A stretch of DNA of 40,141 bases. It comes from an uncultured Candidatus Saccharibacteria bacterium (GTDB taxonomy: Bacteria; Patescibacteriota; Saccharimonadia; Saccharimonadales; Saccharimonadaceae). Where the stretch lies: assembly GCA_946186455.1 (NCBI GenBank), contig CAMHNK010000004.1, positions 1-40,141 of the forward strand, given 5' to 3'. The notes below the pieces were generated by a model, which did no database searches, had not been told where the DNA came from, and worked only from the letters and a program-made list of their open reading frames with translations. Shown here piece by piece: positions 11,423 to 25,417 of the stretch; position 1 is the stretch's first letter, and the number at the start of each line of letters is the position of its first letter. A program made the translations under genes and the position numbers.

Positions 11423-13414
11423 CAGACTCGGTGGATCAAGTGTCACGCGGAAATTCTTATCTAACTTTTTTGCGACTTCTACGAGCGCCCCACGTGAACT
11501 CGAGCGGATCATCAACTGCCATGTAAAACCCCTGTTCGTGCGTTCATGAAACGCCGGCATCGGCGGGGAAACCAGTAGTCTCTTGTCGGAGGATAGCTCG
11601 GCGTATAAATCTCGCACTTTTCTTAGTACAATCGCCTCGGTTTTTAACGTAATATCGAGCCTCATCACGTGCTTAAACGGCGGGAAACCAGAAACCGCCC
11701 GTTTCTTCAGTAAATACTTCGAAAATCCCTCATAATCCTCATTCACAGCGAACGAAAGCACCGGATGCTCCGGCCGAAACGTCTGGATAAACACCTCTGC
11801 CTTATCAATATGACCGCGCCCAACTCGGCCAATCACCTGGGTCAGTAGCTGAAACACTCTCTCTTCCGCTGAGTAATCCGGCAAATTGAGGCCCGCATCG
11901 GCCTGTACCACCCCGACAGTGGCCAGTTTTGGGAGATCTAGCCCTTTTGCTAGCGTCTGTGTGCCGACCAAAATATCCACGGACCCGTTTTTTACTTCTG
12001 TATAAACCGCCTCGAGTCCCTCACCCTTCTTATTATCGGCATCAAATCGCCGAATCTTTGCCCCCCTAAACAGCCTACCAAGCTCCGTCTCTAATAGTTT
12101 TGTTCCGAACCCCTTATGAATCAGCCCCGGCGCCTTACATTTCGGGCAGCAAACTGGCACTTTTTCATGGTAGCCACAAGTATGGCACTTAAGCTCAAAA
12201 CTATCGGCATGGAGCGTTAATGGTAGGAAACAGTTCGGGCACACCAACTCTTCGCCACAATTCTCACAAATTGTAAGGGGCGACGACCCCCGTCTATTAT
12301 GAAAAATCAGCGTCTGCCGGCCATTTGCGAGATTATCGGAAATCGCGGCAAGCAGCGCATCCGAAAAATACCGGTTTTTGCTAAAACTCTCTCTGTTTTT
12401 AAAATCAATAATCTTTATCTCCGGCTTCACTGCCGTATCTTTCGCCTTTTCCGCGAGCTTCACCAGGGTATTCTTCTTATCCGCCAGGTAATAATCTTCC
12501 ACCGTTGGCGTCGCCGACCCCAGAATGCAGTCGCATTTTAACACCGTCGCCATGTAGCTCGCCACCCGGATTGCCGAGTATTTCGGCGAATTCTCCTGAT
12601 AATAGGTCGATTCATGCGCCTCGTCGATAATAATCAGCCCCAGATTATGAAGCGGCGCAAATAGGGCGCTCCTCGGCCCTATCACAATCCTCGGCCCCTC
12701 TCCAAGTAGCAGGGCATCAAAGATCTTCTGCCTCTCTACCTCTGTTTGTTTGGAATGAATCATTGTAATCCTATCACCAAACACCTCCTGAAACACCCGC
12801 ACGAGTTGCCCCGTTAAAGCGATTTCCGGCACCAACAGCACGACGGACTGTTGCCGTTCTAGCGCATTTAGAGCCATTTCTAGGTAGATATTCGTTTTAC
12901 CACTACCAGTGACGCCAAAAAGCAGTTTCGTGGCTCCTAGGGCCTTCTGAAGGCCTTCTAGGGCCATTTTTTGCGCGGGGTTAAGCTGTATAAACGGCAA
13001 TTTGACCGCTTCAACGCCTCTACCCCTGTTAGCACCACCCTGTTCGGTTTTTGCTCTAATCTGTTCGGTTTGTTCGGTTTTTGCTGTTTTCACCCCTGTA
13101 TTTCGGCGTTTTTTCAGCACACCCACCGGCAGCATCATCCCCATTGCACCAGATAAAGGCGCCTGGTAGTATTCACTCAGCCACACGGCCGTTTTAATTA
13201 GGTGGCTTGGCAGCGGTTTTGAATACAAAATTCGTGTAATCGATTTCGTCGGAAAATTCGGTTGAGCAACTTTTTTTACAACAATACCCGGCACTTTCAT
13301 ACGTCCGAGCGGCACTTCCACGATCGCACCAACGGGTAGGGAATCACTAAAATTATAGGTTAAAGCCGTTTCCAGCCTCCCCGTACCCCTCCCTGGTATC
13401 ACCTCGTAAAACAT
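11417..13414 (-). CDS. priA: Primosomal replication-restart helicase PriA
   Basis: 665 residues. The N-terminal 3' DNA-binding domain (LETALTYNFSDSLPVGAIVEVPLG) is followed by the helicase core with GVTGSGKTNIY (Walker A, near 168), IIDEAHEST (DEAH, near 264) and motifs up to QVIGRVGRG. Between helicase lobes is the zinc-binding insert with paired CxxC motifs (CENCGEELVCPNC, CHTCGYHEKVPVCCPKC). It reloads the replicative helicase at stalled forks. A low-complexity insertion near 115-135 (KTEQTEQ, KTEQ) is encoded by copies of the word CAAAAACCGAACA that also occurs in non-coding DNA in this window. Start: TATAAT-AGGGGT-ATG, leaderless. Confidence 0.96.
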   Translation of the reverse strand: MFYEVIPGRGTGRLETALTYNFSDSLPVGAIVEVPLGRMKVPGIVVKKVAQPNFPTKSITRILYSKPLPSHLIKTAVWLSEYYQAPLSGAMGMMLPVGVLKKRRNTGVKTAKTEQTEQIRAKTEQGGANRGRGVEAVKLPFIQLNPAQKMALEGLQKALGATKLLFGVTGSGKTNIYLEMALNALERQQSVVLLVPEIALTGQLVRVFQEVFGDRITMIHSKQTEVERQKIFDALLLGEGPRIVIGPRSALFAPLHNLGLIIIDEAHESTYYQENSPKYSAIRVASYMATVLKCDCILGSATPTVEDYYLADKKNTLVKLAEKAKDTAVKPEIKIIDFKNRESFSKNRYFSDALLAAISDNLANGRQTLIFHNRRGSSPLTICENCGEELVCPNCFLPLTLHADSFELKCHTCGYHEKVPVCCPKCKAPGLIHKGFGTKLLETELGRLFRGAKIRRFDADNKKGEGLEAVYTEVKNGSVDILVGTQTLAKGLDLPKLATVGVVQADAGLNLPDYSAEERVFQLLTQVIGRVGRGHIDKAEVFIQTFRPEHPVLSFAVNEDYEGFSKYLLKKRAVSGFPPFKHVMRLDITLKTEAIVLRKVRDLYAELSSDKRLLVSPPMPAFHERTNRGFTWQLMIRSSSRGALVEVAKKLDKNFRVTLDPPSLL

Positions 13415-16969: not shown

Positions 16970-16993
16970 GATTATCTCCACTTATTTGAAGTC

Positions 16994-17002
16994 ATTATAG
17001 CA
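16994..17002 (-). promoter_or_regulatory. Extended -10 (TGCTATAAT) of the DUF4868-like gene
   Basis: Minus-strand TGCTATAAT, leader about 20 nt with SD GTGGAG. Confidence 0.75.
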
Positions 17003-17246
17003 CAAATCCCGAATTTACCAAATTTCCTCTGTTTGTTCGGTTTTTACACCACAAAATTAAAACAAATGCAATAACACGTGTTCGGTTTTTTAACAGGGGA
17101 GTTGTCCACAACTTGTGCAAAACTATAGGATCAAAAAAATCTAAAAAAAGTCTAAAAAAGCTCTTGCTTTTTATTAGAAAGTAGTATAAACTAGAGTCAA
17201 GTGGAAATCATACATAAACACCACAAACAAACAGCACATTAAAAAA
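17003..17246. other. Non-coding stretch upstream of the rsmH structured element
   Basis: No ORF of note. It contains two copies of the word TTCGGTTTTT (near 17035 and 17084), one AACAGGGG, and the inverted repeat AGTTGTCCACAACT (17100-17113), whose centre TTGTCCACA differs by one base from the DnaA box TTATCCACA. A possible promoter reads TTGCTT (17164) and TATAAA (17185) but with a 15-nt spacer. It could drive an RNA running into the element at 17247. Confidence 0.4.
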
Positions 17247-17515
17247 GTTTGAGATCGGCCAACTAGGAGCTTTAGCACGCATTAATTTGTAGCGAGATGC
17301 GTCAAAACAATCGTGTGCACCTTCCTCAAAAACACACCTCCCAATAAAACTCTATAGACCAATAGGTCAATCTAATTAACACAATAAGTCTCTCAACGGC
17401 TGCGATTATATGATTAGCTTCGCGCTGGTACAATCGTGGTAGATTCATTGTGAAAATCAAACAAAAATCATAACAGAAACAAAAATGCTAAGTTTCTAGT
17501 TGATCGGTCTCAAAC
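17247..17515. ncRNA. Candidate structured RNA closed by a 20-bp terminal stem
   Basis: GTTTGAGATCGGCCAACTAG at 17247-17266 pairs with CTAGTTGATCGGTCTCAAAC at 17496-17515: 17 Watson-Crick pairs, two G-U and one mismatch. After a small internal loop the pairing continues with TTAGCA / TGCTAA. Inside are ACGCAT...ATGCGT (near 17277-17302) and GACC AATA GGTC (near 17357). There is no long ORF in it. The region ends 5 nt before the -10 box of rsmH, so it is not part of the leaderless rsmH mRNA. It lacks the GAGGAAAGUCC core of RNase P RNA, a tRNA-like end as in tmRNA, and the GGAA/AGCAG core of SRP RNA. Strand and identity are unknown. Confidence 0.6.
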
Positions 17516-17519
17516 AATG

Positions 17520-17525
17520 TATAAT
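17520..17525 (+). promoter_or_regulatory. -10 box TATAAT, leaderless rsmH promoter
   Basis: TATAAT, six bases (ATTGGT), ATG at 17532. The -35 is poor, and its place is taken by the 3' arm of the 17247-17515 stem. Confidence 0.7.
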
Positions 17526-17531
17526 ATTGGT

Positions 17532-18404
17532 ATGGAGAACCAACATATCCCTGTACTAATGTCTGAAGTGTTAGCAAACCTTAACCCCAGACCAGGCGAA
17601 AAATATTTAGATCTAACCGCTGGCCTCGGTGGGCACGCTAAGTCAATTTTGGATGTAACACTGAATTATAAAGAATCGGTTTTGGTTGACCGCGATGAAT
17701 TTGCAATAGCTCATCTAAAGCAAAAATTCAAAGAGGGAATCGAGATCATAAACACAGACTTTTATGGCGCAGTGCTACAGTTAATTGAGTGTGGAAAAAC
17801 TTTTGACATTATACTCGCTGATTTTGGTGTCTCATCGCCGCAACTAGACAATGGGGAACGTGGCTTTTCTTTTAAGAACGACGGACCACTAGATATGCGG
17901 ATGGATCGGCGCCAGGCCTTGACAGCAGATGAAATTGTCAATCACTGGAGCGAAAAAAACCTTGCGGAAATCTTTGCGAAATATGGAGAAGAGAAACCCG
18001 GTCACGCAAGGCTCTTAGCACGGGAAATAGTACATGAGCGCCCGATCAAATCAACCGCAGAACTTGCCAGTATCATAGCCAGTAAGTCCAGACACTCTTC
18101 CATCCACCCAGCTACGAAAATCTTCCAAGCCATTCGGATAGTAGTAAACGACGAACTGACAGAGATTGAAAAAACTCTGCCTCTTCTACCGAAACTACTA
18201 AATAAAGATGGTAGGGTCGGCATCATCACCTTCCATAGCCTCGAAGATCGCCTTGTCAAAGACTTTTTTAGGGAGGCCTCAAGCCACGGTGAAGAATCTG
18301 AACTTCGTCTAGTTAATAAAAAACCAATTGAAGCGGCAAAACCGGAGTTAGTTATCAACCCGCGTTCTAGAAGCGCCAAATTGCGAGTAGCAGCGCGGAA
18401 TTGA
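17532..18404 (+). CDS. rsmH: 16S rRNA m4C1402 methyltransferase RsmH (MraW)
   Basis: 290 residues from ATG 17532; the ORF-track start MYNIG is the -10 box. HIPVLMSEVL is the family start; YLDLTAGLGGHA is the SAM-binding motif; DIILADFGVSSPQLDNGERGFSF and DMRMD are hallmark motifs; the end has FHSLEDRLVKDFF and NPRSRSAKLR. It N4-methylates C1402 in 16S rRNA at the P site. In most bacteria it follows mraZ at the head of the dcw cluster; here no mraZ is seen and a structured element sits in its place. It stops with TGA, which shows that TGA is a stop codon in this genome. Confidence 0.97.
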   Translation: MENQHIPVLMSEVLANLNPRPGEKYLDLTAGLGGHAKSILDVTLNYKESVLVDRDEFAIAHLKQKFKEGIEIINTDFYGAVLQLIECGKTFDIILADFGVSSPQLDNGERGFSFKNDGPLDMRMDRRQALTADEIVNHWSEKNLAEIFAKYGEEKPGHARLLAREIVHERPIKSTAELASIIASKSRHSSIHPATKIFQAIRIVVNDELTEIEKTLPLLPKLLNKDGRVGIITFHSLEDRLVKDFFREASSHGEESELRLVNKKPIEAAKPELVINPRSRSAKLRVAARN

Positions 18405-18442
18405 TAAAACAAAAAATAAAAACAAAATAAAAGGAGGCAATT

Positions 18443-18508
18443 ATGCCAAAGCAAATTTTAATTGCGAACAAATCTCGCAAACAAATCATCAAAGTCAACT
18501 TCCGCTAG
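18443..18508 (+). CDS. 21-codon ORF, possible leader peptide
   Basis: Too short for the ORF track. ATG at 18443 has the strong SD AAGGAGG 5 nt upstream and encodes MPKQILIANKSRKQIIKVNFR, a basic peptide ending in TAG at 18506-18508. The stop codon overlaps the start of a stacked hairpin (GTCTTT ... AAAGAC), so a ribosome finishing this ORF would open the stem. It lies between rsmH and ftsL in the same orientation. The peptide resembles nothing I know. A cis-acting leader function is inferred from the position. Confidence 0.6.
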   Translation: MPKQILIANKSRKQIIKVNFR

Positions 18509-18680
18509 TCTTTCCGCTGGGCGGGGAAACACAAACCCGCCCAGATTCTAAAGACCAGTGACATGGGCCTTCGGGTCCGCCAAAACTTAGAGTTTTTCAC
18601 GAGAGTGTGAAGTGTATGACCTTCCCGGGCAAGCTTTTATGGGTCACTTATAGCTCTGCTCATAAAAGCCCCGGACTAAG
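18508..18680 (+). promoter_or_regulatory. Pseudoknotted structured RNA region before ftsL
   Basis: Directly after the 21-codon ORF: stacked stems GTCTTT/AAAGAC (18508-18513/18550-18555) and CTGGGCGGG/CCCGCCCAG (18517-18525/18536-18544); a UUCG-capped stem GGGCC/GGTCC (18565-18578); then a domain closed by CTTAG/CTAAG (18586-18590/18676-18680) with TTCAC/GTGAA, CCGGG/CCCGG and a 9-bp GCTTTTATG/CATAAAAGC. TGACC (18617-18621) pairs with GGTCA (18642-18646) in the loop of the last helix, forming an H-type pseudoknot. No known riboswitch core was recognised. An A-rich unstructured stretch of about 70 nt follows to ftsL. Confidence 0.65.
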
Positions 18681-18750
18681 AATACAAAAACCCTAAAAAC
18701 AAATACAAAAACAAAAGATATTATTAAACAAGCGAGGATAAAAACAAAAA

Positions 18751-19095
18751 ATGATCAGTCAAACATACGTGTCGAGGAGAGAGGCGAGTGCTGGATTTGT
18801 CCGAAATCGCAACATTGTCCGTCACACCAAAAGAAATCTCGGTTCCATTTCACAGACTATTATTGTTGCCATGCTTACGCTTGTATTCGGACTAATTTAT
18901 GTAGCCGAGGGGACCAAAGCTACCAGTCTTGATTATCAAATCTCTGACGTTGAATCTGAAATTTCTGAAATGACCGCCCGTCGTGACGATCTCGCTGTAG
19001 AAAAAGCGCGCCTCACCTCTGTCGTCGCAGCCAAAAATAGCACTGTTGCTGCCGCCATGGAAGACGCCGTGGTGACGGGTTATGTCGCGGATTAA
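18751..19095 (+). CDS. ftsL: FtsL-like division protein
   Basis: 114 residues: a basic cytoplasmic N-terminus (SRREASAGFVRNRNIVRHTKRNLG), one membrane segment (TIIVAMLTLVFGLIYVA, about 36-52) and a short heptad-type coiled coil (YQISDVESEISEMTARRDDLAVEKARLTSV). This topology and its place directly before ftsI match FtsL, which with FtsB and FtsQ holds and activates the FtsW-FtsI septal synthase. Sequence similarity is weak, as usual for FtsL, so the call rests on topology and synteny. SD GCGAGGA is 12 nt upstream. The 3' end overlaps the ftsI start by 14 nt. Confidence 0.8.
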   Translation: MISQTYVSRREASAGFVRNRNIVRHTKRNLGSISQTIIVAMLTLVFGLIYVAEGTKATSLDYQISDVESEISEMTARRDDLAVEKARLTSVVAAKNSTVAAAMEDAVVTGYVAD

Positions 19096-20812
19096 TTTAT
19101 TAAAGAAAATTGTTTTTGTCGCATTAGCGATTATTGCTGTGCGGCTATTTTTTATCCAAATCATCGAGCACGACATGTGGGTGGCAAAGGCCAACGACCA
19201 ACACACTTTAGTTGAAACCATCACGCCAAAGCGTGGCGAAATTTACATGATGGATCATAACGAGCCAGTCGCCGTCGTCTTAAATCAAACCGTTTATTCA
19301 GTGATTATTGACCCAGCTGTCACCGAAAAAGACAAGATTAAAGCTGCGCTCGAAACTCACGCCAAGAATTATATTACGGCGAATCTCGACGAAATCTACG
19401 AAATTGAAGGACTGAGATATTATATAGTGGCAAAAAACGTGCCATACACAAACGCCGTTGAAATTGCCGAAGAGGGCATTAGCTCCGTCTGGCTCAAAGA
19501 GGGCAACGCCCGCGTCTATCCAGAAGGCGAAATGGCCTCCACGACGCTTGGCTTCGTCAATGCCGATGGCCTTGGCCAATATGGTGTCGAAGGGTCACTT
19601 AACACACTTTTGACCGGCAAAGAGGGAACATTGAAGACTATCGCAGACGTCAACAAAGTCGCTCTCTCGATCGGTAAAGATAACGTCAAAATCCCAGCCG
19701 AAGATGGTAAAGACGTCGTGTTAAGCATTGATCGAAACTTTGAAAAAGGCGTTGAAGAGCATGGCATGAACGCCGTAAACGGCACTCAAGCCGACCATGC
19801 CGCCATCCTGGTGATGAACCCAAACACTGGCGAAGTCGTCGCTATGGCGACACTGCCAAACTATAACCCAGCAAACTATGGTATGGTAAAAGACGCCTCC
19901 GCCTACATCAACCAAACCACCGAAGTCCCATACGAACCGGCCTCTATCTGCAAGACCTTCACTTATTCCGCTGCCATTAACGAAGGTAAAATGACTCCAG
20001 ACACTACTTATAATAATAAACACTACGAAATCGTCGATGGCTGGAAGATTTGGAACGCTGAAACCCGTTCTAAGCTTTACGGCACGATTTCGATGCGTGA
20101 TGCGCTTTATTGGTCGCTTAACACTGGCTCCATCCACGCTCTGAAACTCCTCGGCGACAACCCAGAATCCATTACTCAGGCGGGTAGGGAAAAGCTTTAC
20201 GACTACTATCATAATAAATTCCGCCTTGGCCAAGCTACTGGTATCGAGCTTATCGAAGCTGAAGGCTATATCGAAGATCCAAACGAAGGCTGGGGTCGCG
20301 ATTCGACCTACGCCAACATGACTTTCGGCCAGAACCTCGGTATCACCATGATTCAGACCGCCACGGCTTTCTCCGCCGTTGTGAATGGTGGCTACTGGCG
20401 CACTCCGACCGTCGTCAAAGGTACGCTTGAAAATGGCACTATTAAGCCACTAAACAACGAAAAAGTCTCTGAGCAAATCCTCTCCGCTGAAACCAGCGCC
20501 ACTATGCGTGAACTCTTAATGAATAACCGTAGTTGGAAGGTCCGTAATGGTACCGATCGCGCCGGTTATTCTATCGGTGGTAAAACTGGTACCGCCCAGG
20601 TAATCGTCGACGGCTCTTATGATAATGAAATGAATAACCTCATTGGCTCCTATATGGGCTTCGTTGGTACTGCTGGCGAACTTCCACAATATGTCGTCAT
20701 GGTCAAGATGTGGGGCGAGGGCAAAGCCATCGGCTCCGGTGACGCCATGAATCTCTTTGATAATTTATCCCGTTACATTATTGATTACTATAAAATCAAA
20801 CCGAAAGCGTAG
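19082..20812 (+). CDS. ftsI: Peptidoglycan D,D-transpeptidase FtsI (PBP3, class B)
   Basis: 576 residues. An N-terminal membrane anchor (IVFVALAIIAVRLFFIQII, about 7-25) precedes the pedestal domain (RGEIYMMDHNEPVAV) and the transpeptidase domain. The active-site motifs are PASICKTF (SxxK, Ser near 289), SLN (YWSLNTGS) and KTG (GGKTGTAQV, near 500). It crosslinks septal peptidoglycan in the periplasm together with FtsW. The C-terminus lacks a PASTA domain. Length and motif spacing are normal. It overlaps ftsL and its TAG stop directly abuts the -10 box of mraY. Confidence 0.96.
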   Translation: MSRINLLKKIVFVALAIIAVRLFFIQIIEHDMWVAKANDQHTLVETITPKRGEIYMMDHNEPVAVVLNQTVYSVIIDPAVTEKDKIKAALETHAKNYITANLDEIYEIEGLRYYIVAKNVPYTNAVEIAEEGISSVWLKEGNARVYPEGEMASTTLGFVNADGLGQYGVEGSLNTLLTGKEGTLKTIADVNKVALSIGKDNVKIPAEDGKDVVLSIDRNFEKGVEEHGMNAVNGTQADHAAILVMNPNTGEVVAMATLPNYNPANYGMVKDASAYINQTTEVPYEPASICKTFTYSAAINEGKMTPDTTYNNKHYEIVDGWKIWNAETRSKLYGTISMRDALYWSLNTGSIHALKLLGDNPESITQAGREKLYDYYHNKFRLGQATGIELIEAEGYIEDPNEGWGRDSTYANMTFGQNLGITMIQTATAFSAVVNGGYWRTPTVVKGTLENGTIKPLNNEKVSEQILSAETSATMRELLMNNRSWKVRNGTDRAGYSIGGKTGTAQVIVDGSYDNEMNNLIGSYMGFVGTAGELPQYVVMVKMWGEGKAIGSGDAMNLFDNLSRYIIDYYKIKPKA

Positions 20813-24797: not shown

Positions 24798-25036
24798 GGA
24801 ACTGTTCGGTTTTTGTTCGGCTAGTGTTCTCTGCTCTTTTGTTCGGTTTTTGTTCGGTTAGGGGGTTTCATTATGATGCTATGAGGGCGGGGAATATGGA
24901 AAATAACAGGGAAAAATGAAAAAAAGGGAAATATAACAAGGGAAAAGTCAAATTGTGGAAAACTCGGGCCAAAAATCGCCAACAACAGGGGTGGCGGTCA
25001 AAAACGGCCCAAAATGCACGAACTGACGGCCCATGG
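24798..25036. other. Non-coding stretch after the dcw cluster, with repeated words
   Basis: Two exact copies of TTCGGTTTTTGTTCGG (24805-24820 and 24842-24857), then a purine-rich A/G stretch (24890-24950) and a small two-layer stem GGGCC...CGCC...GGCG...GGCCC (near 24966-25030) around AACAGGGGTGG. TATGAT near 24872 could be a -10. No credible ORF. Confidence 0.5.
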
Positions 25037-25215
25037 ATGATCCAAATTGGCTGGTATTTATATTTAGCTCGCTTAGAATTTCGCCTGATTTAAATTTCAA
25101 ATTTTAGGCGGCTCTGCGCCGGTATTTCAGTACCGTGCTCGAGCCGTAAAATTTGTCATTTAAATGGGAAATTCTAAATGCTCGATAAATACAAATACCA
25201 GCCACGTGGAATCAT
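25037..25215. repeat. Giant imperfect palindrome (about 180 bp)
   Basis: The left arm (ATGATCCA, TGGCTGGTATTT, TATTTA, TTAGAATTTC, ATTTAAAT, AAATTTTA, GGCTC) pairs in order with the right arm (GAGCC, TAAAATTT, ATTTAAAT, GAAATTCTAA, TAAATA, AAATACCAGCCA, TGGAATCAT). The loop is itself a hairpin, CGGTA TTTCAG TACCG. More than 55 base pairs form with only short internal loops. It contains no gene. It could be an RNA hairpin, a binding-site palindrome or a small mobile element. Confidence 0.8.
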
Positions 25216-25258
25216 ACATACGCCGTAATTCCCGCCCGGCCCCGCATATTTACCCTAT

Positions 25259-25284
25259 AAAAGACGTATAGACAATCGTCTTTT
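25259..25284. repeat. Hairpin AAAAGACG ... CGTCTTTT
   Basis: An 8-bp perfect stem with a 10-nt loop between the giant palindrome and the terminator; probably part of the same structured region. Confidence 0.6.
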
Positions 25285-25367
25285 GCCGATATCTGTAATG
25301 TCTTAAAATCTGTATTGTGCGACATTTGACGTATGTGGATTTGGACATATGTTGATGCGTCTAAAAT

Positions 25368-25392
25368 CCGGCCCGTTTTTTCGTCGGGCCGG
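25368..25392. terminator. Bidirectional terminator-like hairpin
   Basis: CCGGCCCG, loop TTTTTTCGT, CGGGCCGG. Plus-strand tail CTAATTTTTAATTTT, minus-strand tail ATTTTAG. It can end the minus-strand VirD4-like gene and any plus-strand RNA from the palindrome region. Confidence 0.8.
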
Positions 25393-25417
25393 CTAATTTT
25401 TAATTTTGTTTAGTTTC

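Follow-up and report, generated by a model that had tools for sequence, protein, structure and literature searches.

Short reading frames led by a Shine-Dalgarno (SD) sequence and placed upstream of a folded RNA and an essential operon are a feature of leader-peptide attenuators, such as those of amino-acid operons and of the erm type, and the locus described here, between rsmH and ftsL of an uncultured Candidatus Saccharibacteria bacterium, shares this layout. However, no terminator or SD sequestration was detected at this locus, and its ORF extends well past the range of the RNA, being conserved even where there is no hairpin. With lineage-specific, riboswitch-like cis-regulatory RNAs the locus has in common a single-copy, covarying and partly invariant RNA at a fixed place before one operon, but this RNA is not in Rfam, it is placed after a conserved micro-ORF and it has simple hairpin forms in relatives. 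A third likeness is to the minihelix substrates of RNase P, an enzyme that measures its substrates by the 12-bp acceptor/T stem, base-pairs with the 3' RCCA and also cuts model substrates in hairpin form (PMC11143913). In many relatives N-CCA comes after a stem of some 12 bp, whereas the hairpin of this genus is short and lies within a larger fold, and the likeness is one of sequence and predicted fold. The micro-protein and the structured leader belong to known kinds; what appears to be new is the protein family, the RNA class and the way in which the two are arranged. The open-licence papers searched yielded nothing on the micro-ORF, the RNA, small proteins, non-coding RNA or riboswitches of Saccharibacteria, ftsL leader peptides, or small ORFs near mraW-ftsL. 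For these bacteria, translation regulation is thought to be key to the switch between the host-attached and the free state (PMC11665869).

The window, that is, the whole stretch of 40,141 nucleotides that was analysed, belongs to contig C4 of a 707-kb genome that is 83% complete. The terms genus, family, order and class are used below as kinship labels from the genome search. The features of the locus are as follows.

17517–18404, + strand: rsmH (mraW), the upstream operon gene; Pfam MraW methylase PF01795, E 9e-93
18432–18437, + strand: SD of the micro-ORF, AGGAGG, read directly; same SD and place in nearly all genus loci
18443–18508, + strand: micro-ORF of 21 codons, MPKQILIANKSRKQIIKVNFR; ATG at 18443, TAG at 18506–18508
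18503–18560, + strand: P1, a variable two-layer stem of the predicted fold; a similar stem is predicted in close relatives, not uniformly across the genus
18563–18682, + strand: conserved RNA core (covariance model R1); 122.5 bits, one copy in the genome
18564–18579, + strand: P2 hairpin, here with a UUCG loop; 6 pairs, each with changes at both bases; pairing in 99.6% of cells
18580–18582, + strand: CCA directly 3' of P2; C in 54, C in 54 and A in 51 of 55 sequences
18588–18593, + strand: proposed 5' strand of a pseudoknot, TAGAGT, complementary to 18653–18658
18596–18611, + strand: P3 hairpin with the conserved GAGTGTG; MFE prediction
18615–18621, + strand: unpaired motif TATGACC, conserved in the genus alignment A1
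18625–18629 with 18670–18674, + strand: P4, the helix that closes the domain; pairing in 100% of cells, double changes in 4 of its 5 pairs
about 18633–18643 with 18659–18668, + strand: P5, inside P4 (helices 4 and 5); double changes at all pairs
18653–18658, + strand: proposed 3' strand of the pseudoknot, GCTCTG, in the P5 loop; hardly variable, including in loci that the pattern had not selected
18751–19095, + strand: ftsL-like gene for a short protein with one hydrophobic segment, SD at about 18732–18738; precedes ftsI
19082–20812, + strand: ftsI (PBP transpeptidase); PF00905, E 3e-49, and PF03717

The ftsL-like protein had no Pfam match, so the name ftsL rests on synteny. Two elements described in an earlier sequence-only reading, a 21-codon ORF with a near-perfect SD and a UUCG hairpin downstream of it, were found at the positions listed above. 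Of the 59 genomes drawn from the genus, most were shown by a BLAST search with 321 bases to have the locus, and nearly all genus loci had an ORF of 20–24 residues in the same place behind AGGAGG. A check suggested in that reading, whether relatives keep the reading frame, came out in its favour: the 52 distinct 21-codon ORFs from the genus gave a pN of 0.148 and a pS of 0.646 (pN/pS 0.23), as against pN/pS values of 1.35 and 2.87 when read out of frame, and third codon positions were the most variable. This pattern of codon change indicates that the micro-ORF is under purifying selection, i.e. that it is a gene.

The micro-ORF was found between rsmH and ftsL in all 59 order loci read and in all 20 further class loci from outside the order, two of which had GTG starts and were read by eye. 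It was seen in none of 20 loci from other classes of Patescibacteria; an ftsL-like ORF followed rsmH instead. Since reading ORFs by eye might bias these counts, we built a 19-position profile of the micro-ORF (A3) and scanned it against whole genomes. Among 13 chosen genomes, 10 of the 11 from the class were matched, with the rsmH-ftsL locus as the only site in nine, and neither of the two outsiders was. In 192 genomes of the phylum, the profile matched 12 of 15 class genomes and one of the 177 others, the latter weakly and in part. Two genomes absent from the profile (G094 and G089) were matched just 3' of their rsmH. The profile is not perfect, since in one class genome (G076) with two matches the site away from the rsmH locus outscored the expected one; apart from these two matches, no second genomic copy of the micro-ORF was found. 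In the reading that we prefer, the micro-ORF would be a constant part of the division gene cluster in the whole class Saccharimonadia. A class-wide gene as small as this is easily missed by annotation.

The class-wide consensus of the product is MxIxVxxxSRAxKVxVRxx, with a length of 19–24 residues, rarely up to 27; a related ORF from the order reads MPIQVKSSSRAYKVHVKVV. Outside the genus, the C-terminal residues, the length and the position of the stop vary. Pfam and NCBIfam returned no family for three diverse members. The alternating I-x-V ... V-x-V pattern suggests a beta-hairpin, and the micro-protein is probably a basic beta-hairpin. The best profile likeness among PDB sequences was to the N-terminal beta-hairpin of ubiquitin (residues 1–17), with M-x-I-x-V-K, a turn and x-V. 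However, at about 4 bits per domain this match was not significant; we consider it a likeness of pattern, and ubiquitin-like homology was rejected.

The region downstream of the micro-ORF is strongly folded. Positions 18430–18700 fold at -85.4 kcal/mol (z = -5.3), and none of 200 shuffled sequences was as stable. In 78 distinct sequences, 96.0% of the pair cells of the RNA were standard, against 78.8% in shuffled and 32–48% in slid controls; double-changed cells numbered 354, against 83 and 26–49, respectively, and 20 of the 27 pairs had double changes. P2, P4 and P5 are established because their covariation and pairing exceed these controls, and P3 was left out of the count since the alignment is uncertain there. 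The suggested check on whether all helices covary thus came out positive for P2, P4 and P5 but not for P1, which is variable, or for the pseudoknot. The sequence-only reading had described a closed domain with an H-type pseudoknot: the P4/P5 domain does covary and its loop is complementary to the upstream strand, but there is no compensatory change in the pseudoknot among the aligned RNA sequences, since the P5 loop hardly varies. Pairing of TAGAGT with GCTCTG is compatible with most sequences, and a single pair is disrupted by each of two variants of the loop; the genus RNA is probably closed by this loop pseudoknot. At gathering score, Rfam identified only a tRNA in the window, and no relevant match was obtained at the locus up to E 10, so the suggestion of an unrecognised RNA class stands as far as these tools reach. 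The ORF and helices P2, P4 and P5 are conserved in close relatives, so neither of the outcomes named beforehand as speaking against the sequence-only reading came about.

The invariance of TATGACCTTCC and ACTTATNGCTCTG in A2 is forced, since the 80 loci of this set were found by an exact pattern, and the same holds for TATGACC; for A1 and A4, most of the loci were picked on overall similarity. In four loci (L030, L032, L063 and L065) the P2 loop is CAGAGTGTG, so that GAGTGTG, the motif of P3, is present a second time in these RNAs. In three diverged members of the genus (L039, L040 and L043) a loop with GCGATGGTGC or a similar sequence replaces ACTTATAGCTCTG, and these may perhaps represent a second subtype of the RNA.

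A covariance model built from 29 sequences gave 63 matches at E<=1 in 70 loci from the genus and its neighbours, and matched all 80 pattern-derived loci. Among 151 genomes of the family, the RNA was found in 11, once each and with no second copy; of the 61 genera, only this genus and one sister genus had it, the match in the latter being weak. The exact pattern, run against a library that covers 84,980 species, yielded 102 matching stretches, and all of the 80 listed are from Saccharibacteria. Named carriers among the matches listed are all Candidatus Saccharibacteria, for the most part from ruminant gut, and Candidatus Nanosyncoccus alces is one of them. The micro-ORF lies upstream of the RNA in 79 of the 80 loci, the remaining one being cut by the end of its contig, and ftsL lies about 50 nt downstream; this placement includes loci that the automatic filter missed, in which the printed sequence shows the start of ftsL. 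The RNA is a feature separate from the micro-ORF and younger than it. In five loci of the sister genus (L068, L069, L072, L074 and L075) the gap contains several copies of TTTTGACC or TTTGACC, partly in predicted hairpin loops, and the genus RNA has a single TATGACC; the repeated motif looks like a putative repeated binding motif.

A compact fold, a single copy per genome and invariant unpaired motifs would also suit an independent, trans-acting non-coding RNA that lies between the two genes by happenstance. However, the RNA was never found away from ftsL, promoter-like sites are at chance level and no terminator follows the RNA, and we regard this origin as highly improbable.

Outside the genus, the leader takes a simpler form. 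A hairpin was found in the rsmH-ftsL gap in 82 of 90 other class loci, with a median stem of 12 bp and a start at a median of 15 nt 3' of the micro-ORF stop. In 23 of these 82 hairpins CCA stands exactly one base past the helix, against 2 of 156 control hairpins taken from genus loci and the window (Fisher p 4e-10); at each later position, CCA occurs in at most 4 hairpins. The base before CCA is usually A or G. A tRNA ends in this way, with N-CCA following a helix. P2 is probably a descendant of the ancestral class hairpin, as the genus RNA keeps CCA after P2. Four class loci (L255, L258, L260 and L267) have the micro-ORF and no stable hairpin. The leader would therefore be dispensable in some lineages, and the micro-ORF is not merely a sensor for the RNA, since several lineages keep the ORF without any hairpin.

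These hairpins raise the question of mRNA processing, in which a hairpin with N-CCA would mimic the acceptor/T-arm minihelix of a tRNA and serve as a cleavage site for RNase P, or for a nuclease related to it, splitting the rsmH message from that of ftsL. The median stem of 12 bp, the CCA one base past the helix and the A or G that usually precedes it speak for such a cut, as RNase P recognises a stem of 12 bp together with RCCA (PMC11143913); the tRNA genes here encode CCA, and a type A RNase P RNA is present. However, CCA is found on only about a third of the hairpins, P2 has 6 pairs in this genus rather than 12, and an inspection by eye of P15 in the genus's RNase P RNA did not find a GGU that could pair with RCCA. 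Because of this last result, processing by RNase P is kept as a rival and not as a verdict, and we consider it quite unlikely. In one genome (G443, locus L293), the RNase P RNA gene appears to hold an insert of more than 100 nt between inverted GCACCTGAAAATGAT repeats.

The position of P1 bears on a possible coupling between the micro-ORF and the RNA. The ORF had been described as ending exactly where the two-layer stem begins; P1 is indeed predicted at this junction, but the stem takes in the last codon and some of the stop codon. In many close relatives, the predicted P1 overlaps the stop codon. The stop was fully paired in 22 of 69 predicted folds and wholly unpaired in 23, so an exact abutment of stop and stem is not a fixed trait, and a model in which P1 always locks the stop codon was rejected on the latter 23 folds.

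Several routes by which the RNA might control ftsL-ftsI were explored. No terminator-like site was found in 17000–18800, and the sequence 3' of the folded RNA is A-rich. Sigma-70 promoter-like sites in the region were at about chance level. The ftsL SD is unpaired in the centroid fold, with no sequestration by the RNA. Pairing between the micro-ORF and the ftsL SD (UCUCGC/GCGAGG in the MFE structure) gave -8.5 kcal/mol, against -8.8 kcal/mol for permuted partners, with the same outcome on synonymous resampling, and was rejected. Classic attenuation is therefore unsupported, given the lack of a terminator, the free ftsL SD in the centroid fold and an ORF:SD pairing no better than that of permuted partners.

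A rival explanation is leader-peptide regulation along the lines of the sequence-only reading: the nascent 21-aa peptide, or the rate at which it is translated, would decide the fold of the RNA and hence the expression of ftsL-ftsI. The micro-ORF has a strong SD, a strict position and length and conserved amino acids, and the predicted P1 overlaps its end in many genus members. With a length of about 20 aa, the peptide would not yet have left the ribosome tunnel, which also counts for such a mechanism. However, the micro-ORF is class-wide whereas the RNA is limited to roughly one genus, and the ORF is kept in lineages without a hairpin. Beyond the genus, neither its C-terminal residues nor the place of its stop are constant, unlike those of termination-arrest peptides. 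There is also no terminator, the centroid fold leaves the ftsL SD unpaired, ORF and SD do not co-vary, and pairing of the stop codon is not uniform. Leader-peptide regulation thus seems unlikely to us, and the translation-coupled control of ftsL-ftsI put forward in the sequence-only reading may operate at this locus.

We lean slightly towards a different reading, in which the rsmH-ftsL gap holds two neighbours, a translated micro-protein gene and a cis-acting structured leader of ftsL-ftsI. The leader would be, in most of the class, one strong hairpin, often with N-CCA directly after it, and in this genus it would have grown into a compact multi-helix RNA. Transcribed with the surrounding genes as one message, it would set the output of ftsL-ftsI via mRNA processing, stability or translation, and a cellular factor would bind the unpaired motifs conserved in it. 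P1 would be melted by a ribosome that reaches the end of the micro-ORF, so that some coupling may occur in this genus. A stronger version of this two-neighbour arrangement, in which a universal micro-protein family restricted to Saccharibacteria and a tRNA-end-like RNA, with a new pseudoknotted class in one genus, make up a unique division-control module, appears doubtful.

A fixed micro-gene and a folded leader before ftsL-ftsI offer a concrete and testable candidate control point for division, and transformation and Tn-seq now exist for Saccharibacteria (PMC10633639). The RNA family, with more than 75 distinct sequences, is ready for inclusion in RNA libraries.

Elsewhere in the window, TGTTCGGTTTTT occurs eight times with at most one mismatch, always on the + strand (13041–13082, 17034–17090, 24803–24851 and 25942), against 0.6 expected. 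The divergent gap of 535 bases before rsmH (16982–17516) is more folded than its shuffles (z -4.1). A convergent gap of 620 bases (24798–25417) has a z of -7.2 and, by eye, a long inverted repeat, GGCTGGTATTTATATTTAGC ... AAATACAAATACCAGCC; it is possibly a mobile or repeat element.
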